Positions 15,369-44,260 of a stretch of DNA of 44,260 nt are shown here, piece after piece. The stretch's first letter is position 1, and every line of letters starts with the position of its first letter. The translations under genes were made by a program, and so were the position numbers. The stretch lies in the NCBI GenBank assembly GCA_024401305.1, contig JAKSLI010000022.1, positions 1-44,260 of the forward strand, read 5' to 3'. The notes beneath the pieces were generated by a model. That model saw only the letters and a list, made by a program, of their open reading frames with translations, was not told the origin of the DNA and did not search any database. The DNA comes from Bacteroidaceae bacterium. GTDB lineage: Bacteria > Bacteroidota > Bacteroidia > Bacteroidales > Bacteroidaceae.

Positions 15369-15451
15369 GTTAAGGTTCGCTCTTTGAGCGAGGCTAAAGG
15401 CTAAAGGCTAAAAGCTAAAGGCCAAAAACCAAAAACTTAAAAACATACAAT
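15369..15451 (+). repeat. hairpin plus heptamer array, susC-susD gap
   Basis: A 6-bp hairpin TCGCTC-TTT-GAGCGA (15377-15391) is followed at once by seven heptamers in phase (15392-15440). These start as GGCTAAA and decay to GGCCAAA, AACCAAA and AACTTAA. The same layout recurs in the next two gaps of this PUL. It may affect mRNA stability or processing between cistrons; this is inference. Confidence 0.75.
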
Positions 15452-17272: not shown

Positions 17273-17369
17273 TGGTTCGCGCCATGCGCGAGGCTAAAGG
17301 CTAAAAGCTAATGGCTAAAGGCATCGACTGCCAATAGTCAAAACGTCAAATCATTAAATCATTAAATAA
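17273..17369 (+). repeat. hairpin plus heptamer array, susD-SGBP gap
   Basis: The hairpin TCGCGC-CAT-GCGCGA (17277-17291) begins five bases after the susD stop. It is followed by phased GGCTAAA-type heptamers (17292-17326), a degraded stretch, and AAATCATT units just before the next ATG. Its layout matches the susC-susD gap but the stem sequence has changed with base pairing kept, which points to selection on structure. Confidence 0.75.
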
Positions 17370-18698
17370 ATGAAAAAGTATAACATTCTCTTCTTGTTTG
17401 TCGCTCTCATGGCAGCTGTAGGTTTCACTGCATGTGCTGACGAGCCTTTCAAGTATGAGGTTAGCGATGGTACTCCTACCATCCGCTATATCCGTCCAGT
17501 GGATGTGGCAAGCGCAGACTCGCTTCTCACAGGCGCATTCATGGACAACGAGATTTGCATCGTGGGCGAGAACCTCCGAAGCATCGTTGAGATGACTTTC
17601 AACGACCAGAAGGCTCAGCTCATTCCTTCTCTCATCACTGACAATACCCTCATCGTTACTGTTCCTGGTACAATCCCAGGAGAGGTGTTCGACAAGATCT
17701 TCATGAAGAACAACAAGGGTGAGGTTACTGAATATCCTTTCAAGGTTCTCGTACCTGGTCCAAAGATTATCTCTATGGACAACGAATGGGCTAAGGCTGA
17801 CGATGTCCAGAATCTCTATGGTAGCTACTTTGTTCAGGACCCTAACGTGCCTCTCACTCTTAAGATTGGCGGCAAGGAAGTGAAGATTGACGAGTTTACA
17901 GACAATACTATCACATTCACTGTTCCTGAAGGTCTTGAAAAGAACAGCGAGATTGAGGTTTCTACTGTCTATGGTTCACAGAAGGCTCCATTCAACTACC
18001 GAGACACTCGTGGTATGATCACAAACTTCGACAACCCTGACGGCTTCGCCGACAACTCTGGTACCAAGGGTATCGTTCCACAGGGTTGGAACCCTGCTTT
18101 CTTCTACTCTGATGAGGATGGTATTGATGGCTTCTACATTCAGGTAGGTGACGGCTCTAAGACAATGCCAGCTGACGGAAATTGGCAAGAAGAATTCAAG
18201 GTATCTTGGTGGTGTGGTAACTGGGGCGGCAACCCTATGGGTATCACAGAAGGTGCCGGTGTTCCTCTCCGCAACATCTTCCCTGCTGGTTACTTTGCAG
18301 CGCCTGCTAAGCTTGCGTTCAAGTTCGAGCTTTGCGTTCCTAATGATTGGGAAGCTGGTGTGCTCCAGGTAGTATTCGCAAACAATCAGGTTTGTGCTAA
18401 CGATACATGGCAGAACAACACATACATCAAGCCTTCTCCAGAAGGTCCAGACCTCTGTCGTGGTATGTATGCTCCATGGAATGGCTCTGGCTCATTCACT
18501 ACTAATGGCAAGTGGATTACAGTTGTTATGCCTCTCTCTAACTTTACTTACAACTTCGACGGTACTGCCGGTGCCAAGGAACTCACTCCAGAAAGCTTCG
18601 ATAGCTTCACTATGTGGCCTGTAGCTGGTGGTCTCGAAGGTAAGGAATGTAAGCCAATCCTCCGCTACGATAACATCCGTATCGTTCCTATTAACTAA
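17370..18698 (+). CDS. surface glycan-binding lipoprotein (IPT/TIG domains)
   Basis: A 442-residue predicted surface lipoprotein with lipobox TAC followed by ADEPF. Residues about 35-120 and 128-210 look like two immunoglobulin-like IPT/TIG folds (ICIVGENLRSIVEMTFNDQK and NLYGSYFVQDPNVPLTLKIG). The C-terminal half, from about residue 214 (MITNFDNPDGF), is a separate domain rich in aromatic residues (EFKVSWWCGNWGGNPMG). This matches the plan of SGBP-type proteins that hold polysaccharide for SusCD: Ig-like spacers and a distal glycan-binding domain. Its place directly after susD supports this. The substrate is not known from sequence. Confidence 0.8.
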   Translation: MKKYNILFLFVALMAAVGFTACADEPFKYEVSDGTPTIRYIRPVDVASADSLLTGAFMDNEICIVGENLRSIVEMTFNDQKAQLIPSLITDNTLIVTVPGTIPGEVFDKIFMKNNKGEVTEYPFKVLVPGPKIISMDNEWAKADDVQNLYGSYFVQDPNVPLTLKIGGKEVKIDEFTDNTITFTVPEGLEKNSEIEVSTVYGSQKAPFNYRDTRGMITNFDNPDGFADNSGTKGIVPQGWNPAFFYSDEDGIDGFYIQVGDGSKTMPADGNWQEEFKVSWWCGNWGGNPMGITEGAGVPLRNIFPAGYFAAPAKLAFKFELCVPNDWEAGVLQVVFANNQVCANDTWQNNTYIKPSPEGPDLCRGMYAPWNGSGSFTTNGKWITVVMPLSNFTYNFDGTAGAKELTPESFDSFTMWPVAGGLEGKECKPILRYDNIRIVPIN

Positions 18699-18798
18699 AG
18701 TTCGCGCTTTGCGCGAGGCTAAAGGCAATGGCTAAAGGCTAAAGGCATCAACTGCTAATAGCCTAAAGCCAAAAGCCAAAAACCAAAAACCAAAAACA
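18699..18798 (+). repeat. hairpin plus heptamer arrays, SGBP1-SGBP2 gap
   Basis: The hairpin TCGCGC-TTT-GCGCGA (18702-18716) is followed by GGCTAAA units with one 6-base slip, then a second array running from GCCTAAA through GCCAAAA to ACCAAAA units that ends at the ATG. It is the third copy of the layout in this operon and includes the longest CCAAAAA-type run. Confidence 0.75.
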
Positions 18799-20628
18799 AT
18801 GAAAAAGATATTCAATTACATAATGCTGTTTGCGGTGGCTCTCTCGGGTCTCACGCTGACAGCGTGTAGCGAGGATGAGCTCGACACCAACCAGTACAAC
18901 AAGGATGGTGTGAATATCCTTGCTTTCGGTCCGATGCCTATTACCCGTGGCGAGACAATGCGCCTCACTGGTACTAAGCTCGACCAGGTGAAGGAAGTGC
19001 TCTTCCCTGAAGGAAACCAGAAGCTCACTGCCGCTACCACTTACATTCAGGGCCAGTTCACTTTGAATGGCTCAGAGGAAATGACAGTTACTATTCCTGA
19101 TCTCTGTGTTCCTGGCAAGCTTCGTCTCGTTACAAACTCTAACGACACTGTTGTTTCTGCCTCTAACATCACATTCGTTGAGGAGATCAAGGTTGCAAGC
19201 TTCACTCCTTCTCATGTTCACCCTGGTGACATCGTGACTATCAAGGGTGAGTATGTTTGGAACATTGCTGAGGTTACATTCTCTGCTGCTGTGAAGGTAG
19301 CTGCTGAGAACTTCGTAAAGAACACTCGTAATGAGGTTCAGATTCAGGTTCCTATGAATGCTGTTTCTGGTCCTGTTACTTACAACGACGGTAGCGAGGG
19401 TGCAGAGGAAATCGTTCTCACTGACAACCTTGTTGTTGACGCCGCTCTTGCTACAGGTGTTTCTAACGCTGCTCCTGAGTATGGTGAGGAAATCACTATC
19501 ACAGGTCAGAACCTCGACCTCGTTGAAACTGTTGCATTCCCTTCATTCGGTGCAGTAAAGGAGTTCACTCTTGTTGACCGCAACACTATCAAGGTTGTTG
19601 TTCCTGGCACTTCTACTTCAGGTAACATCGTCCTCACTTCTTACTCTGGTCTCACTACATCTGTTGAGATTGCTGTTCCTCTCATCTCTTACGAGGCTGG
19701 TTCTATCGCTCCTGTTGAGGAACTCAAGGTTGGCGACAAGGTATCTCTCAAGGGTACTCTCCTCGACCGAGTACAGGTTGTTAAGCTCCCTGGCGACATT
19801 CTCCTCCAGAAGGGTGAGTTCGAGCAGAGCGCTAACGAGATCTCATTCATCGTTCCTAAGGGAATGGGCGACGGCAAGGTTGTTCTCATTCAGCATGACA
19901 ACTACTCTGTTGAGACAGATAAGATTGCTATGCACCACGACGGAGCAGAGAAGGTAATCTGGTCTGGTAGCTTCAAGATTGATGGTTGGAATGGTTTTGA
20001 GGATCTCTCATGGGGTCGCTATGATTGGTCTAACCTCAAGGCTGGCGACGAAATCATCTTCTACGTTGACTTCGTAGATCCAACAGCAGGTTGGGCTTGC
20101 CTCTCACCTCGTATGGGCGACGGTTGGAAGAACCTCTCTGTAAGCCAGATTGACTTCACTCCAGGTGCAGAAACTCAGCGCGTTGTATTCAAGGTGACAG
20201 AATCTGATGTTGATAACATCAAGAACCATGGTGGTCTTATCGTCACTGGTACTGGTATCATCCTCAAGCAGGTATGTCTCCCAATCCCACAGATCGTTGC
20301 TTGGTCTGGCAACTTCACAATCGATGGTTGGAACGGTACTCAGGATCTCGCATGGGGTGGCTACGACTGGTCAACTTTCCAGGCTGGTCAGAAGATTATC
20401 TTTACTGTAGGTTTTGTTGACCCAACAGCAGGATGGGCTTGTATCTCACCTCGTATGGGTGATGGCTGGAAGAACCTTTCAGTAGGTCAGATAGACTTCA
20501 CTCCTAGTGCAGAAGATCAGACTGCTACATTCATCCCAACATCTGAAGATATCTCACACCTCCAGAACGATGGTGGTTTGGTAATCACAGGTACTGGTAT
20601 TATCTTGAAGCAGGTTGTTATTCAGTAA
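18799..20628 (+). CDS. multi-domain surface glycan-binding lipoprotein with duplicated C-terminal domain
   Basis: A 609-residue predicted lipoprotein with signal and lipobox TAC followed by SEDELD. Residues about 40-380 hold a string of four or so IPT/TIG Ig-like domains (phrases such as HPGDIVTIKGEYVWNIAEVTF, EYGEEITITGQNLDLVETVAF and KVGDKVSLKGTLLDRVQVVKL, each under 25 residues and repeating every 85-90). The C-terminus is a tandem duplication: residues 386-493 and 499-609 share WSGxFxIDGWNG, DPTAGWAC and SPRMGDGWKNLSV and look about two-thirds identical by eye. The aromatic-rich repeats resemble carbohydrate-binding modules. It is probably the outermost glycan-capturing component of the PUL. 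A terminator follows. Confidence 0.75.
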   Translation: MKKIFNYIMLFAVALSGLTLTACSEDELDTNQYNKDGVNILAFGPMPITRGETMRLTGTKLDQVKEVLFPEGNQKLTAATTYIQGQFTLNGSEEMTVTIPDLCVPGKLRLVTNSNDTVVSASNITFVEEIKVASFTPSHVHPGDIVTIKGEYVWNIAEVTFSAAVKVAAENFVKNTRNEVQIQVPMNAVSGPVTYNDGSEGAEEIVLTDNLVVDAALATGVSNAAPEYGEEITITGQNLDLVETVAFPSFGAVKEFTLVDRNTIKVVVPGTSTSGNIVLTSYSGLTTSVEIAVPLISYEAGSIAPVEELKVGDKVSLKGTLLDRVQVVKLPGDILLQKGEFEQSANEISFIVPKGMGDGKVVLIQHDNYSVETDKIAMHHDGAEKVIWSGSFKIDGWNGFEDLSWGRYDWSNLKAGDEIIFYVDFVDPTAGWACLSPRMGDGWKNLSVSQIDFTPGAETQRVVFKVTESDVDNIKNHGGLIVTGTGIILKQVCLPIPQIVAWSGNFTIDGWNGTQDLAWGGYDWSTFQAGQKIIFTVGFVDPTAGWACISPRMGDGWKNLSVGQIDFTPSAEDQTATFIPTSEDISHLQNDGGLVITGTGIILKQVVIQ

Positions 20629-27880: not shown

Positions 27881-28243
27881 GCTAAAAGTCAAATTGTTTC
27901 TAATAGCTCGCATTTAATAATCAGTTTCAAGTTTCGCAAGCTTCGCTCGCAAAGGCTAAAGACAAAAGACTACAATCTACAGGCTGCCACGGCGGTAAAT
28001 CTGACAAAATAGTATCACTCATCTTTTGCCAAATTACAGCTTAGAGCCCACTTTTGTAAGTAATTGATAATGTGCGAGTTATGGAAGCACAAAAAAACTC
28101 AGCGAGTTTTGCATAAAAAACCGCTGAGTTTTGGGTAAAAAGTCATAGAGTTTTTGATCGTTTCCCGCTGGGTTTTTATCCGTAATCCATAAAGTTACGA
28201 AAAACACCCCTCGGAATGACAAAATAGTATCAGAGCCTATAGG
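27881..28243. other. intergenic region with degenerate array and direct repeats, no gene
   Basis: No coding region is seen. Contents: a degenerate hairpin-like TTCGCAAGCTTCGCTCGC stretch followed by GGCTAAA-type heptamers (27954-27981), related to the PUL arrays. A 16-base direct repeat TGACAAAATAGTATCA occurs at 28002-28017 and 28217-28232. Between its copies are several variants of CGCTGAGTTTT (about 28098-28175), in which AAACTCAGCG and CGCTGAGTTTT can pair as a hairpin. Confidence 0.5.
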
Positions 28244-34834: not shown

Positions 34835-35539
34835 TTACAACTGTCCTGCTTCTATTTGCTTTACGAGAAGTTCCATCTCCTTGTCTTCGCCCTCAGGATC
34901 GTATTTCTTGTTGAGCGAAGCACCGAAAGTCCAGGCGAACGCCTGATAGAATCCGGCGCGAACAGGACCGAGGAATGCTTGGAGAAGATTGTAACCTGAC
35001 GATTGCGTCTCGCGATGTACAAGCTTTATGAGCAGTTTTCCTTGGTTGAGTGTGAGTTTCTTCATGCGTGGCGTGTAGTCAGCCTTGATGTCCTTCTCCA
35101 CTTGCTTGAGATGCTTCTTTCGCTCTTTCTCGGAAGGTATCTGCGAAACCGTCTCGTAAGTCTCGATGACGATGCCGCGTATTTCCTTTGAGATAGGCAT
35201 AACCTTCTTCAAATTATATACAAGTCGGTCCCATTTCTTCTTCTCCTTGTCGTTCTTGAATGTGCGTGGCGGAACGATTGTCAGTGTGTTCAACTTTACG
35301 CTCAGCACATCTTCGCCGTTCATCTGAGTTTCTTCCACAGCAACCTTTGGCACGAAAGTAGGCGTGTTCAGGTTGATGCCATTGTCCTCGGGATTGTCTT
35401 GGGCGAAGGCTGCCCGCCACATGACCCCCTCCGACTCCCCCACAAGGGGGAGGGTTACCATCCGGAAGATTAAAGTATCCAAATGGAAAAGGAAAGTAAA
35501 GATAAATATGTATTTCAAATACTTTTGCACAATATTCAA
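34835..35539 (-). CDS. DUF4294 family protein, signal region containing a palindromic repeat
   Basis: A 234-residue protein of a Bacteroidota family without known function. The core has VPPRTFKNDKEKKKWDRLVY, YTPRMKKLTLNQGKLLIKLV, FLGPVRAGFYQAFAWTFGAS and KKYDPEGEDKEMELLVKQIE. The N-terminus is odd. A basic-hydrophobic segment (VQKYLKYIFIFTFLFHL) is separated from a signal-peptidase-like site (RAAFAQDNPED) by about 20 residues, of which residues about 24-39 are encoded by a GC palindrome. The frame opens with TTG (35539) or GTG (35530); ATG codons at residues 27 and 40 fall within or just after the repeat. It follows tamL and shares its conserved neighbourhood. Confidence 0.75.
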   Translation of the reverse strand: MNIVQKYLKYIFIFTFLFHLDTLIFRMVTLPLVGESEGVMWRAAFAQDNPEDNGINLNTPTFVPKVAVEETQMNGEDVLSVKLNTLTIVPPRTFKNDKEKKKWDRLVYNLKKVMPISKEIRGIVIETYETVSQIPSEKERKKHLKQVEKDIKADYTPRMKKLTLNQGKLLIKLVHRETQSSGYNLLQAFLGPVRAGFYQAFAWTFGASLNKKYDPEGEDKEMELLVKQIEAGQL

Positions 35540-35603
35540 TTTGTGGATTTGTTTTTATCAGCGATGTATGAATCCCTCCCCTGTGGGGAGGTTAGGAGGG
35601 GTC
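35423..35603. repeat. pair of GC palindromes with GACCCC/GGGGTC outer ends (181 bp)
   Basis: One end (35423-35468) runs GACCCCCTCCGACTCCCCC, loop ACA, then the complementary arm and GGTTACCATCCGGAAG. The other end (35573-35603) is CCCTCCCCTGTGGGGAGG with TTAGGAGGGGTC. The second end touches the tamL stop codon; the first lies inside the DUF4294 reading frame. The roughly 105 bases between them hold the DUF4294 start and the hydrophobic part of its signal peptide. Confidence 0.75.
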
Positions 35604-37841: not shown

Positions 37842-38594
37842 TTATTTACGTCTGAATTCGGAGCAAGTGATGGCAGTTGCTATAGCTACATTCAAACTTT
37901 CTGCGGTGTCGCCGTCAGAGAAGCTTGGGATGAGGAGCTTGTGCGTAACAAGTTGGCGGACTTCTTCCGATATTCCGTTGCCTTCATTGCCCATAACAAT
38001 AACGCCCTCTTGCGAAAGTTTCTGTTCATAGATGTTTTCGCCATCGAGTAAGGTGCCATATACAGGTGTATCTTCAGGCAAGCATTTCAGCCATTCGGCA
38101 AGACTTTCCACATATATAATATTTACGCGCGCGAGACTTCCCATAGTGGCTTGGACAGTTTTCGGGTTGTAGGCATCAGCTGTTTCCTTGCTGCACACTA
38201 TCTGCTTTATGCCAAACCAGTCGGCAATGCGGATTATTGTACCGAGGTTTCCCGGGTCTTGAACGCCGTCGAGAGCGAGGATGAGCCCCCCACAGACCCC
38301 TCCCGACCTCCCCACAGGGGAGGGGTTACCTTCCGGATGGTTTTGTCCTCCCCCTGTGGGGGAGTTAGAGGGGGTCTTGGTAGGGCTTTTGAATACAGCA
38401 AGCATTTCCTGCGGATGTTTCAGAAAACTTACCTGCTTTATTTCCTCTATGTCGTTGAGCAGAATCTCAGGCTCTTGGTATTTCATGAACTCGCGCACAG
38501 CCTTCGGACCCTCCACAACAAACAAGCCGTGGCGGTCGCGATATTTCTTTTGCTCAAGCGAGCGTATGAGTTTCTTTTGTGCGTTTGTGAGCAT
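37842..38594 (-). CDS. TrmH/SpoU-family RNA 2'-O-methyltransferase with palindromic-repeat insert
   Basis: A 250-residue SPOUT methyltransferase acting on rRNA or tRNA with SAM. Residues 1-70 form the L30e-like substrate-binding domain (KKYRDRHGLFVVEGPKAVRE). The knotted catalytic domain has motif 1 GVQDPGNLGTIIRIADWFG (about 110-128), motif 2 VIVMGNEGNGISEEV and motif 3 IPSFSDGDTAESLNVAIATA. Between the two domains, residues about 73-100 (Pro/Gly/Ser-rich, containing SPTGGGQNHPEGNPSPVG) are encoded by an 82-bp repeat inserted without breaking the frame. Its exact RNA target is not evident. It ends 72 bases before the tamL start. Confidence 0.92.
   Translation of the reverse strand: MLTNAQKKLIRSLEQKKYRDRHGLFVVEGPKAVREFMKYQEPEILLNDIEEIKQVSFLKHPQEMLAVFKSPTKTPSNSPTGGGQNHPEGNPSPVGRSGGVCGGLILALDGVQDPGNLGTIIRIADWFGIKQIVCSKETADAYNPKTVQATMGSLARVNIIYVESLAEWLKCLPEDTPVYGTLLDGENIYEQKLSQEGVIVMGNEGNGISEEVRQLVTHKLLIPSFSDGDTAESLNVAIATAITCSEFRRK
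38295..38376. repeat. 82-bp palindrome pair inside trmH
   Basis: Two GC hairpins face each other with outer ends GACCCC (38295) and GGGGTC (38376). Each has an ACA/TGT-type loop, and the inner spacer contains TTACCTTCCGGATGG. It is the shortest complete member of the family and lies wholly within coding sequence. Confidence 0.8.
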
Positions 38595-40891: not shown

Positions 40892-41701
40892 ATGGCAGAT
40901 ATACTCGACCAGATAATAGCAGACAAACGCATAGAGATAGCTCTTGCTAAAGAGCGTCTCTCGGAAACTGACATCCACAAGCTATGGGAAAGCAAGGCGT
41001 CAGAGTTGGAAAAATATCATCCATCGCTTGCAAAGGCGTTGGTAAACGCTCCTGGTGGTGCCGGCATCATCTCAGAATTCAAGCGTAGGTCGCCATCAAA
41101 AGGTTGGATAAAGGAGGAAGGTCGTGCAGACATCATCCCTATCTCTTACCAACAGAACGGCGCTGCGGCACTTTCCATTCTCACTGACGAAAAGTATTTC
41201 GGCGGAAAGGATGAGTTTATTGTAACAGCTCGCCAGAGCGGAGTCACTATTCCTATATTATATAAGAACTTCGTGGTCGATGAATACCAGCTTTTCCAGG
41301 CGACTCTCTGTGGCGCTTCTGCCGTTCTTCTCATCGCTGCCGACCTTAAGAAACCTGAGTGCAAGGCACTTCTTCTGACGGCTCATGAGCTCGGACTAGA
41401 GGTACTCCTAGAGATGCACAGTGAAGAGGAACTTGAATATGCAGAACTCGAGCCGGATGTTTGTGGCATAAACAACCGTAACCTCGGTTCTTTCGTCACT
41501 GATGTTCAGAACTCCTTCCGTCTTTCAGCCCTTCTTCCAAAGGACGCAGTGAAGGTAAGCGAGAGCGGCATCAGCAATCCGGAGACTGTCAAGCTCCTCA
41601 TTCAAGCTGGCTTCAACGGTTTCCTTATCGGCGAAAATTTCATGAAGACGGCTAATCCAGGCGAGTCATTAAAAGAATTCATTAATAATATAAACAACTA
41701 A
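40892..41701 (+). CDS. trpC: indole-3-glycerol phosphate synthase
   Basis: Converts carboxyphenylamino-deoxyribulose phosphate to indole-3-glycerol phosphate. It has 269 residues. Seen: MADILDQIIADKRIEIALAK, the catalytic-lysine segment IISEFKRRSPSKGWI, ALSILTDEKYFGG, VLYKNF-type PILYKNFVVDEYQ, VCGINNRNLGSF and VSESGISNPETV. It is monofunctional and not fused to trpF. It lies 62 bases after trpD; that gap holds a small hairpin CCTTGA/TCAAGG. Confidence 0.98.
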   Translation: MADILDQIIADKRIEIALAKERLSETDIHKLWESKASELEKYHPSLAKALVNAPGGAGIISEFKRRSPSKGWIKEEGRADIIPISYQQNGAAALSILTDEKYFGGKDEFIVTARQSGVTIPILYKNFVVDEYQLFQATLCGASAVLLIAADLKKPECKALLLTAHELGLEVLLEMHSEEELEYAELEPDVCGINNRNLGSFVTDVQNSFRLSALLPKDAVKVSESGISNPETVKLLIQAGFNGFLIGENFMKTANPGESLKEFINNINN

Positions 41702-41729
41702 TATTGCTGTTCCCACCACAGCATATTAC

Positions 41730-41765
41730 TCCCCTCCCATTAGGGGGAGGGGTAGGGGGTGGGGC
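41730..41765 (+). repeat. single GC palindrome (right-end type) before trpF
   Basis: CTCCCCTCCC, loop ATTA, then GGGGGAGGGG and a G-rich tail ending four bases before the trpF ATG. It has the same polarity and position relative to a start codon as the right ends upstream of trpA and trpB. No left end precedes it in the trpC-trpF gap. Confidence 0.7.
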
Positions 41766-41769
41766 TTCT

Positions 41770-42483
41770 ATGATAATCAAAGTATGCGGAATGCGCGAAG
41801 CGCAGAATATTGACGAAGTTGCAGCTCTTGGCGTTGACCTTATCGGTCTTATTTTCTATCCAAGAAGCAGACGCTATGTATCACAACTCCCAACAAGAGC
41901 TGGCATCATCCCTGATAGAGCAGGGCAGGGCCAGAGCACAGCACCAGTGAAGAAGGTTGGTGTTTTCGTTGACGACATGCCACAAACCATTCTTACTCGC
42001 GTGGTGAACTATGGTCTTTCGTATGTTCAGCTCCATGGAAACGAATCGCCAACGATGATTGAGAACCTTAAGCGAACACTCGTTCCAGACTTCGTTCCGG
42101 AGATTGGAATCATCAAGGCGTTGAGCGTTCAGAGCGAAGAGGATGTAGAACGATGGCGCCAGTATGAAGGACTCGTTGACTACTTCCTTTTCGACACCAA
42201 GTGTCCTACAGTCGGTGGCAGTGGCAAGCGTTTCAACTGGGACCTCCTGAAAGCATACGACGGCAACATTCCGTTCCTCCTTTCAGGCGGCATCGGACTT
42301 GAGGACCTTGACGACCTCAAGGCATTCTCTCATCCAATGCTTGCTGGCTACGACCTCAACTCAAAGTTTGAAGATGCTCCGGCACTTAAAAACATAGAAA
42401 AGATCAAGGAGTTCATCGAAAAAATCCAGACCCCCTACCCCCCCCAAGGGGGAACTTTTAATAGTCTTTTCCCTAAGATATAA
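41770..42483 (+). CDS. trpF: phosphoribosylanthranilate isomerase
   Basis: Isomerises phosphoribosylanthranilate, the third step of the pathway. It has 237 residues from the ATG at 41770 (MIIKVCGMREAQNIDEV, with the catalytic Cys). An in-frame start at 41704 would read through the palindrome and is rejected. Further motifs are DLIGLIFYPRSRRYV, KVGVFVDDMP, YVQLHGNES, DYFLFDTK (catalytic Asp) and LLSGGIGLED. Residues about 220-237 (TPYPPQGGTFNSLFPKI) and the stop codon come from the left end of the adjacent repeat element, so the natural C-terminus has been replaced or extended. Confidence 0.96.
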   Translation: MIIKVCGMREAQNIDEVAALGVDLIGLIFYPRSRRYVSQLPTRAGIIPDRAGQGQSTAPVKKVGVFVDDMPQTILTRVVNYGLSYVQLHGNESPTMIENLKRTLVPDFVPEIGIIKALSVQSEEDVERWRQYEGLVDYFLFDTKCPTVGGSGKRFNWDLLKAYDGNIPFLLSGGIGLEDLDDLKAFSHPMLAGYDLNSKFEDAPALKNIEKIKEFIEKIQTPYPPQGGTFNSLFPKI

Positions 42484-42558
42484 TATTTAGCACAAAATAA
42501 AACTCTTAACCCTCCAGAGTATAAAATCTCCTCCCCTTGGGGGAGGTTGGGAGGGGTC
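42429..42558 (+). mobile_element. 130-bp miniature element with inverted GC-rich ends (no gene)
   Basis: The left end (42429-42464) begins GACCCCCTACC, has a palindrome and ends GGGGGAACTTTTAATAGT. The right end (about 42503-42558) has CTCTTAACCCTCCAGAG, then ATAAAAT, then a CTCCTCCCCTTGGGGGAGG palindrome and GTTGGGAGGGGTC. Both match the ends of the 492-bp unit at 43332-43823 almost base for base. The 38-base interior has no gene. It fills the trpF-trpA junction and supplies the end of trpF. Confidence 0.7.
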
Positions 42559-42561
42559 TAT

Positions 42562-43341
42562 ATGAACAAGATAAACTCCCTTTTCCAGAACCGCGGCGAC
42601 CGCAAGCTGCTCTCGCTGTATTTCTGTGCAGGCTGTCCAACCCTCGAAGGCACAGCCGATGTCATAAAGACCCTTGAACGCCGAGGCATAGACATGATAG
42701 AGGTCGGCGTTCCTTTCTCCGACCCAATGGCTGACGGTCCTGTCATCCAAGGTGCTGCTACACAGGCATTAAAGAACGGTATGACCCTCCGTAAGCTCTT
42801 CTCGCAGCTCGAAACCATCAAGGACGAAGTGAAGATTCCGCTCATTCTCATGGGTTATCTCAATGTGATGATGCAGTATGGCTTCGAGGCTTTCTTCAGC
42901 AAGTGCAAGGAAGTTGGTGTCTCTGGTGCCATCATCCCAGACCTTCCTTTCAAGGATTATCTCGAGCTGAAGCCTATTGCCGACAAGTACGACATCCGCA
43001 TCATCATGCTCATCACTCCAGAGACTACCGAAGACCGCATCCGCTTCATCGACGAGAACACCGACGGCTTCATCTATATGGTAAGCTCAGCCTCTACAAC
43101 AGGTGCGCAGAAGTCTTTCGACGAGGCAAAGCAAGAGTATTTCCAGCGCATCAATGCCATGAACCTCCGCAACCCTCGCATGATAGGTTTTGGTATCAGC
43201 AACAAGCAGACACTCGAATCTTCTCAGCAGAACGCTGCCGGAGCCATAATCGGTTCTAAGTTCGTTAACCTCCTCAGCGAAGCCAACGGCGACGCCGAAC
43301 TCGCAATGGATAAACTCTACGAGGCGCTAACGACCCCCTAA
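42562..43341 (+). CDS. trpA: tryptophan synthase alpha subunit
   Basis: Cleaves indole-3-glycerol phosphate to indole, which passes to TrpB. It has 259 residues from the ATG at 42562 ([20 protein letters not shown]). The catalytic Glu and Asp are in [16 protein letters not shown]. Also seen are [41 protein letters not shown] and [15 protein letters not shown] lies seven bases before the ATG, contributed by a repeat end; this is unusual for the phylum. The stop codon TAA (43339-43341) lies inside the next repeat end, which supplies the last codons (TTP). Confidence 0.98.
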
Positions 43342-43823
43342 CCCCCCAAGGGGGAACTTTTAATAGTTTACATTTATGAAGGCAAGATTTGTAACAGCAG
43401 ATCCTGGTTATTATAGTTTGCTAAAGACATTTGCTGATAAAAACAAAGAACATCAGACAGATGCAGAGCAACTATTATGGTATTACCTTTCTAATAATAA
43501 TTGGGGACTAAGATTTCGCCGACAGTATATTATTGGTACATATATTGCTGATTTTGTCTGCTTAAAGAGTAATACTATTATAGAGATAGATGGTGGTTAT
43601 CATTCTCAGGAATGTCAGCAAGCCAAAGATTTGATTAGAACTACTAATCTTGAGCAGATGGGGTTTAAGGTTATACGATTCACTAATGAACGAGTATTCT
43701 CGGACCTTTCTGCTGTCTTAGATGAAATATTCAATTTTGTTGTTAAACATTTAGATATAAAATAGAGCTCTTAACCCTCCAGAGTATAAAAACTCCTCCC
43801 CTTGGGGGAGGTTGGGAGGGGTC
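43332..43823 (+). mobile_element. 492-bp element with inverted GC-rich ends carrying a DUF559 gene
   Basis: The left end (43332-43366) is GACCCCCTAACC, palindrome, GGGGGAACTTTTAATAGT. The right end (about 43768-43823) is CTCTTAACCCTCCAGAG, ATAAAAA, then a CTCCTCCCCTTGGGGGAGG palindrome and GTTGGGAGGGGTC. Outer termini are GACCCC and GGGGTC. Everything between the ends is one AT-rich gene (43376-43765). The unit separates trpA from trpB, two genes that are usually adjacent. No clear target-site duplication was found. Confidence 0.7.
43376..43765 (+). CDS. DUF559 (Vsr-like PD-(D/E)xK) nuclease-family protein
   Basis: A 129-residue protein of the DUF559 family, related in fold to very-short-patch-repair endonucleases. 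Motif residues seen are Glu31 in [26 protein letters not shown] with Arg48-Arg49 and Asp59, IIEIDGGYH with Glu70, Asp72 and His76, then [14 protein letters not shown]. The set of one early Glu, an Asp and an ExD is what this nuclease fold needs, so it is probably active. The gene is much more AT-rich than the trp genes on either side and uses different codons. It is closely framed by repeat ends (nine bases on the left, about two on the right). It has no obvious role in tryptophan synthesis. DNA cleavage or processing of the repeat ends is the main hypothesis. Confidence 0.88.
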
Positions 43824-43827
43824 GATT

Positions 43828-44260
43828 ATGAATTTTTTCGTTGATGAAAACGGATTCTACGGCAACTACGGTGGTGCCTACATCCCAGAAATATTATACA
43901 AGACAGTAAAAGACCTTGAGGCTGCTTATAAGCCTATCCTCGACAGCGAGGAGTTCAAGCAGGAATATCACGCTCTGCTGAAGGATTACGTCGGCCGTCC
44001 TTCGCCTCTCTACTATGCAAAGCGCATGTCGGAGAAGTACGGCTGCCAGCTCTACCTCAAGCGTGAAGACCTCAACCACACTGGTGCTCACAAGATTAAC
44101 AACGCTCTCGGTCAGATTCTCCTTGCGAAGAAGATGGGCAAGACTCGCATCATCGCCGAGACTGGTGCCGGTCAGCATGGTGTTGCTACAGCTACAGCCT
44201 GCGCACTTATGGACATGCCTTGCACCGTTTATATGGGTGCTCTCGATGTTCAGCGTCAGC
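43828..44260 (+). CDS. trpB: tryptophan synthase beta subunit (3' partial)
   Basis: Condenses indole with serine using PLP. The first 144 codons are present: ATG at 43828 ([20 protein letters not shown]), [36 protein letters not shown] with the PLP-binding Lys, and [14 protein letters not shown]. The frame stays open to the window end, so about two-thirds of the gene lies outside. GGAGG at eight bases before the ATG comes from the right end of the DUF559 element. Placement after trpA with an intervening element is atypical. Confidence 0.97.

Follow-up and report, generated by a model that had tools for sequence, protein, structure and literature searches.

A DUF559 nuclease gene between inverted C-rich hairpin ends in a Bacteroidaceae trp operon: a candidate minimal mobile element with gene-less relatives

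The unit between trpA and trpB

The trp operon forms the final part of the window, by which we mean the whole 44,260-nucleotide stretch of Bacteroidaceae DNA analyzed here, taken from an assembly of 3.2 Mb in 115 contigs that is 86% complete. Judged by the named loci that match its DUF559 genes best, the genome is presumably Prevotella-like. The gap between trpA and trpB is occupied by a unit with the following parts, located from the sequence.

43332..43823, + strand: whole DUF559 element, 492 bp, in the trpA-trpB gap
43332..43367, + strand: left end, made up of the tag GACCCCCTAA, a C-run/G-run hairpin and AACTTTTAATAGT; terminator-like
43376..43765, + strand: DUF559 gene (Vsr-like PD-(D/E)XK nuclease), 129 aa, Pfam DUF559 E 1.6e-31
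43759..43823, - strand: right end, made up of GACCCCTCCCAACC and a CCTCCCC/GGGGAGG hairpin; terminator-like, in the opposite orientation to the left end

The left end opens with GACCCCCTAACCCCCCAAGGGGG at 43332, and the right end terminates in GGAGGTTGGGAGGGGTC at 43823. The unit is flush with both trp neighbors, as its left end includes the trpA stop codon (TAA, 43339-43341) and the start of trpB lies 4 bases past its right end; the exact junctions in the window are putative. The DUF559 open reading frame has a GC content of 0.33, versus 0.47 to 0.52 in trpC, trpF, trpA and trpB. Together with the Pfam match, these observations confirm the first-pass annotation in its description of an AT-rich gene for a Vsr-like nuclease bracketed by inverted GC-rich ends between trpA and trpB.

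The window protein scored 108.9 bits against Pfam PF04480, for which the cut-off is 20.6. Residues T28, E31, W35, F47, Q50, D59, F60, E70, D72, G73, H76, D85, R88 and R101 were invariant in 24 aligned sequences, and the acidic and histidine residues among them (E31, D59, E70, D72, H76 and D85) bear out the earlier claim that the residues expected for nuclease activity are present. The fold assignment rests on sequence profiles matched to solved structures, namely, PDB 3hrl (5.8e-31) and PDB 3r3p (E 1.2e-6), the latter labeled "mobile intron protein," which we take to be the EDxHD homing endonuclease I-Bth0305I, set in a phage intron. Of 148 genomes sampled from the phylum, 78 had DUF559 matches, covering 54 of 83 genera, and their distribution within the genus was patchy (37 of 60 genomes, including the one studied here). 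Membership of the PD-(D/E)XK, Vsr-like family was already known, the YcjD profile being reported to pick up Vsr at 1e-5 (PMC1189080). The Caulobacter DUF559 protein VsrA has been reported to be responsible for an SOS response when the ScmA methylase is missing (PMC12907096), and a DUF559-containing gene of Thermosynechococcus appears under intein-containing genes, assigned to the EDxHD family (PMC9403480).

Local alignment of the upstream flank with the reverse-complemented downstream flank gave an inverted match of 32 at the window locus, compared with a maximum of 31 over 2,000 random window positions. Since this locus taken alone exceeds chance by little, the argument depends on recurrence. 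A repeat finder called no inverted pair at 43332-43823, because its ends match each other imperfectly. The DNA fold of the left end (-6.2 kcal/mol, z -1.24) was by itself not exceptional; that of the right end was -10.9 kcal/mol (z -1.47), and the single-strand DNA folds of five ends were unexceptional relative to dinucleotide shuffles (z -0.7 to -1.9).

Recurrence of matched ends and gene-less copies

In the same genome, all seven stand-alone DUF559 genes are AT-rich (GC 0.33 to 0.36) and have inverted C-rich hairpin ends, each pair being of its own sequence type, and an eighth DUF559 match, a domain within a 985-aa open reading frame, has no such ends. At one locus (L002) the matching end partner sits past a nearer, different hairpin. 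Inverted-end scores were obtained for sets of 37 loci, 65 loci, 79 of 80 named loci and 10 loci outside the phylum. The named loci were the best matching of 550 DUF559 loci, are largely from Prevotellaceae and Bacteroidales, many of them from the rumen, and lost one member to a short flank. The first-pass annotation had given DUF559 homologues without such ends as evidence that would count against it; most were found to have them, with scores of at least 30 at 7/7 loci of the studied genome, 22/29 of the genus, 18/29 of the phylum sample and 57/79 of the best-matching named loci. Only 12.6% of 3,000 swapped flank pairs and 0.8% of 2,847 random positions at the same loci scored as high. At a threshold of 50, the corresponding figures were 33/79 named loci versus 1.1% (swapped flanks) and 0.25% (random positions). 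Scores below 30 were obtained at 22/79 named, 7/29 genus and 11/29 phylum loci, some of which are in-frame units with degenerate ends and others of which are without ends.

Outside Bacteroidota, ten loci were scored, comprising 9 of 38 matching plasmid records, chosen for diversity, and Escherichia coli ycjD. Five exceeded all 200 shuffles (Pseudanabaena, Sphingomonas, Qipengyuania, Picosynechococcus and, narrowly, Deinococcus), and the other five, including ycjD, had no inverted ends beyond shuffles. When the plasmids of Picosynechococcus PCC 7002 and PCC 7003 were compared, the left-hand homology began at the GCCCC tip; this comparison informs on the left tip alone, the right side being common to both. 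Among plasmid records searched for empty sites, that of PCC 7002 was the one informative case. At least 80% of the ycjD region is present in 3,333 of 5,426 E. coli genomes, and ycjD was dropped as a population test since it lacks an inverted pair beyond shuffles and the one genome read that matches only on the fabI side (L128) had no clean empty site. In L128, the fabI-sapF interval holds a TetR-type regulator and an RND-pump gene beside fabI, where K-12 has ycjD, and matches confined to fabI suggest further genomes of this kind.

The window also contains palindromic elements without a gene.

42429..42558, + strand: gene-less sister element, 130 bp, at the trpF-trpA junction; same ends, longest open frame 40 codons
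41729..41768, - strand: single palindrome in right-end orientation in the trpC-trpF gap, found by eye in the sequence
38295..38376, - strand: gene-less 82-bp element of the CACAG-loop type, in frame in open reading frame 37842-38594 (- strand); a listed pair
35423..35603, + strand: gene-less element, 181 bp, same end class; a listed pair

The sister element lies 0.9 kb upstream of the DUF559 unit and shares its inverted terminal repeats, with 26/26 nucleotides identical at the left end and 94% identity over 68 nucleotides at the right. The trpF frame continues into 42429-42483, so that the protein gains the tail TPYPPQGGTFNSLFPKI. Neither the sister element nor the position of the trpA stop codon inside the left end figured in the first-pass annotation. 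The open reading frame at 37842-38594, named from motifs, is presumably SpoU-type methyltransferase-like.

The GACCCC/GAGCCC end pattern matched 111 times in the studied genome, a count that includes some overlapping duplicates, compared with once for the reversed pattern. From part of these places 33 pairs were listed, built by proximity with no demand that both ends match, and 3 of them combine different loop types. Thirty-one are 81 to 270 bp long and hold no frame of more than 74 codons; the other two (492 bp, the trpA-trpB unit, and 521 bp) contain DUF559. A second end, GCCTCT, matched 35 times (control, 0) and formed 11 inverted pairs within 600 bp. Nine of these join one TTA-type end to one AG- or CAG-type end; they comprise 8 of the 9 short pairs together with the DUF559 unit on contig 72. 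None of the 11 has two TTA or two AG ends, from which it follows that GCCTCT-type units keep two distinguishable ends. For both the GACCCC and GCCTCT types, the gene-less copies have the ends of a resident DUF559 unit. In a relative with a complete genome (G016), an identical or near-identical hairpin was present at nine fetched places without a DUF559 gene.

A strict scan of 837 kb yielded 19 inverted pairs, 14 short (under 300 bp) and 5 long, and all 5 long pairs held DUF559, called by motif and coinciding in each case with a Pfam match. Ten of the pairs, 9 short and 1 long with DUF559, came from stretches that had not been picked for the gene (20 evenly placed in G016, 14 in G059 and the window itself). 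The other nine, 5 short and 4 long with DUF559 in 4/4 of the latter, came from six G059 stretches chosen for DUF559. No gene other than DUF559 was found inside any of the 33 listed or 19 strict-scan pairs. These counts are lower bounds, as the scanner recovered a pair in 4 of the 6 picked stretches, and it found none in the window itself because it demands 6-base perfect arms. A reversed-sequence control, which tests arm polarity only, gave 0 pairs.

Other arrangements of palindromes were encountered. One stretch of G016 (C1:371400-372200) carries a tandem array of about nine single palindrome units of about 44 bp (AACCTCCCCC..CCCCTCCCAAGGAGGGGAGT), which shows that palindromes are arranged as direct repeats as well as in inverted pairs. 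In palindromes with TAAGTTA/TAACTTA loops (L224 and L238), the GACCCC tag is on the inner side of the hairpin, the opposite of the window type, and a pair with this loop brackets a DUF559 gene in G031 (C118:64742-65325).

Across 59 relatives of the genus, the studied genome being excluded, the number of palindromes (two patterns) tracked the number of DUF559 genes with a rho of 0.74; split gene pieces were counted once, DUF559 matches weaker than about 3e-15 were uncounted, and the P values are too optimistic because species of one genus are not independent. The first-pass annotation had held that ends equally common without DUF559 would speak against it; palindromes proved rarer there, with a median of 1.5 in the 26 genomes without DUF559 versus 43 in the 33 genomes with it, the former including three genomes (G007, G017 and G020) with weak matches only. 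Among genomes at least 90% complete, the medians were 1 and 52.5, respectively. Exceptions occurred in both groups, with at least 10 palindromes in 6/26 genomes without a clear DUF559 and fewer than 10 in 7/33 genomes with one.

End type covaries with the DUF559 protein. In 86 elements, restricted to those scoring at least 30, protein identity correlated with end similarity (Mantel r 0.39; 0 of 2,000 permutations), and after the 38 elements with similar flanks were removed, the remaining 48 with dissimilar flanks gave a Mantel r of 0.26 (0 of 2,000 permutations). Over 21 pairs in the studied genome, rho was 0.53 (P 0.014). Shared ancestry inflates these correlations, including those of palindrome number with DUF559.

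Insertion sites and alternative explanations

Unit-free trpA-trpB junctions were found in relatives, as the first-pass annotation had proposed to look for. The unit is absent from all 10 of the 29 relatives' loci in which trpA lies upstream of trpB, one of these having an intervening gene, and the relative matching best at the TrpB N terminus (G021; 90% over 144 aa) has a 26-bp gap and no unit. Base-exact empty sites were not obtained at trpA-trpB, groES-groEL or the SpoU linker in comparisons with relatives, because the gaps and the linker are too variable among them. No target-site duplication was evident in 33 units, with 2 two-base matches versus 2.16 expected and none of 3 to 9 bases.

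Units also occur in frame inside genes. DUF559 lay within a frame of at least 250 codons at 25 of the 80 best-matching named loci of 550. From motifs read by eye, we take the host genes to encode LeuRS (four loci, three insertion points), MetH, an ABC-F-type ATPase, HsdR, HsdM and helicases, as well as RecG (seven loci), UDP-GlcNAc epimerase, an XTP-phosphatase-like product and others; MetH-borne units were seen in three loci of relatives. The in-frame hairpins translate to Pro/Gly-rich stretches, e.g., PLPLGEDLGEGK. At the insertion point of the 82-bp element in the SpoU open reading frame, relatives have a variable, mostly shorter linker, and one (L285) has what appears by eye to be a different palindromic insert. 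Similarly, among 30 groES-groEL loci (that of the studied genome included, drawn from 358 genomes with a match), the gap holds different palindromic units in several species and none in others.

In one relative (L216), a small open reading frame lies between groES and groEL; its product presumably resembles four-helix-bundle proteins encoded by intervening sequences of rRNA genes. The window has AT-rich repeats composed of GGCTAAAGGCTAAA units at 15374-15436, 17274-17370, 18699-18794 and 27936-27984 (families D2 and D5), and GCCAATAGCC strings like them occur in the groES-groEL gaps of some relatives. Window positions 19960-20191 and 20302-20533 are 232-nucleotide direct repeats, 76% identical, with starts 342 bp apart.

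The main rival to a minimal selfish mobile element is site-specific homing, in which, as with free-standing homing endonucleases, DUF559 would cut an empty allele, recombination would copy the unit there, and the hairpins would be by-products or end protection. The profile match to 3r3p and the absence of target duplication are consistent with homing, as is the repeated occupation of the same gene in relatives (RecG and MetH, as counted above), which inheritance predicts likewise. However, homing predicts neither one end type at many unrelated sites of a genome nor an excess of short gene-less pairs over gene-bearing pairs, and we regard it as unlikely. The related suggestion of a group I-style unit was not borne out, since 41600-44260 gave no Rfam match at the gathering score, and no splicing (intein) domain was evident by eye in the in-frame DUF559 units. 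A different possibility is that the pairs are ordinary REPINs moved by a RAYT or IS200-type Y1 transposase, with DUF559 as a passenger. Inverted hairpin pairs without target duplication are a REPIN-like architecture, and Y1_Tnp is matched weakly twice in the studied genome (E 4e-6 and 9e-5). Against this, palindrome number across the 59 relatives was unrelated to Y1_Tnp (rho 0.09, and -0.02 given DUF559), whereas the correlation with DUF559 stayed at 0.74 given Y1_Tnp, and RAYT was rejected as the driver of the palindromes on these counts. Seven genomes (G003, G008, G019, G026, G047, G056 and G058) have at least 50 palindromes and DUF559 with no Y1_Tnp at E 1e-3; moreover, no second passenger gene was found in the pairs, which lack the GTAG tag. 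We consider this explanation most improbable.

It is also conceivable, though very unlikely, that the palindromes are useful to the host as terminators, mRNA 3'-end elements or supercoiling elements and that DUF559 acts as a nuclease in repair, removing or editing cruciforms. The Vsr-like fold hints at repair, and hairpins lie in operon gaps such as groES-groEL of several species. A terminator-like consensus matched 6 times in the stretch scanned versus 2.0 expected, and both ends of each of the two trp units conform to it (43342-43354 in the left end and 43811-43795, - strand, in the right end of the DUF559 unit); in 31 of 66 ends, TTTT occurs on the inner side of the hairpin within 15 nucleotides. 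By placement, however, the palindromes do not behave as terminators, as units are read through in frame inside LeuRS, MetH, RecG, HsdR and many other genes, and a terminator there would cut the host gene short. The patchy distribution of DUF559 and the fact that every DUF559 gene has its own matching ends are likewise at odds with a host function. Because the window ends are terminator-like, termination is kept as a possible side function, and the trp units may incidentally halt or modulate transcription.

Interpretation and comparison with known systems

The best reading of these data is a minimal mobile system that resembles REPIN/RAYT but is built on a Vsr-like nuclease. The trpA-trpB unit is probably a minimal selfish mobile element, in which the C-rich hairpin ends are the DNA sites and DUF559 is the cognate nuclease, predicted to be structure selective. 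We infer that the units move and that DUF559 recognizes, nicks and transposes them; that DUF559 proteins process or spread the palindromes was the hypothesis of the first-pass annotation. In the mechanism we propose, DUF559 would recognize hairpins of its own type, probably while they are single-stranded at replication forks or extruded as cruciforms, and would nick them at the tips. Host repair would then place the released unit or a copy in a new site, with no target duplication; the absence of such duplications is easier to reconcile with insertion through single strands or repair than with a DDE transposase. DUF559 might also work in trans on units that have lost the gene by internal deletion, and these would constitute the larger population of short inverted pairs.

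A broader proposition, for and against which we would place equal weight, is that these units belong to a multiphylum class of minimal mobile elements. In such a class, a Vsr-like DUF559 protein and self-matching hairpins would form a single-strand transposition or copy-in system that seeds gene-less palindromes. The system would also insert into open reading frames without breaking the frame, so that essential proteins acquire a nuclease domain or Pro/Gly-rich linkers, and its mechanism might account for orphan palindromic elements, those of Rickettsia among them. Such elements were found here in Bacteroidota, Cyanobacteriota, Alphaproteobacteria and, narrowly, Deinococcota. DUF559 is widespread and of known fold, with little assigned biology, and a link to resident palindromes would supply it with a role. 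If the tie between DUF559 and palindromes holds, many intergenic and intragenic palindromes of bacteria would have a driver, and the REPIN-like lifestyle would have a second enzyme type, unrelated to HUH transposases. The in-frame units in LeuRS, MetH and RecG point to one way in which essential proteins could gain domains from selfish DNA.

The first-pass annotation likened the unit to REP sequences and their RAYT transposases with a different enzyme family, and this resemblance is supported, with DUF559 as the flanked gene and Y1_Tnp not tracking the palindromes. As described for REPtrons (RAYT/TnpAREP with REP/REPIN), a small enzyme gene lies between palindromes, short inverted palindrome doublets are dispersed, and the enzyme is paired with its own repeat type (PMC3116915, PMC8266576); the dispersed doublets are represented here by 31 of the 33 listed pairs. 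In contrast to REPtrons, the flanked enzyme is a PD-(D/E)XK Vsr-like protein and not an HUH tyrosine (Y1) enzyme, the tag is not GTAG but a 5' C-rich sequence (GACCCC, GAGCCC, GCCTC or GACCCACC), several gene-bearing units occur per genome, and insertion into open reading frames in frame is frequent.

Other systems share single traits with these units. I-Bth0305I has a related catalytic domain, matched through 3r3p, and a selfish context, but the units described here have hairpin ends and a gene-less population, and 41600-44260 matches no Rfam family at the gathering score. Rickettsia palindromic elements are, by description, also palindromic units in frame in unrelated protein genes, but the units here include a gene-bearing form, and the account of the Rickettsia elements, as far as it covers them, mentions no nuclease gene (PMC10969869). 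In contrast to the intein-section DUF559 gene of Thermosynechococcus, the in-frame units here flank the domain, as judged by eye, with hairpin-coded Pro/Gly-rich stretches. As in DDE insertion sequences and their MITEs, terminal inverted repeats are common to gene-bearing and gene-less copies, but the target duplication of such elements is absent. The earlier claim of an undescribed class agrees with the open-licence literature searched, where, by title and start of abstract, no report ties DUF559 to palindromic ends. With the REPIN-defining enzyme and tag absent, we regard these units as a candidate new kind of putatively mobile element with a REPIN-like lifestyle.
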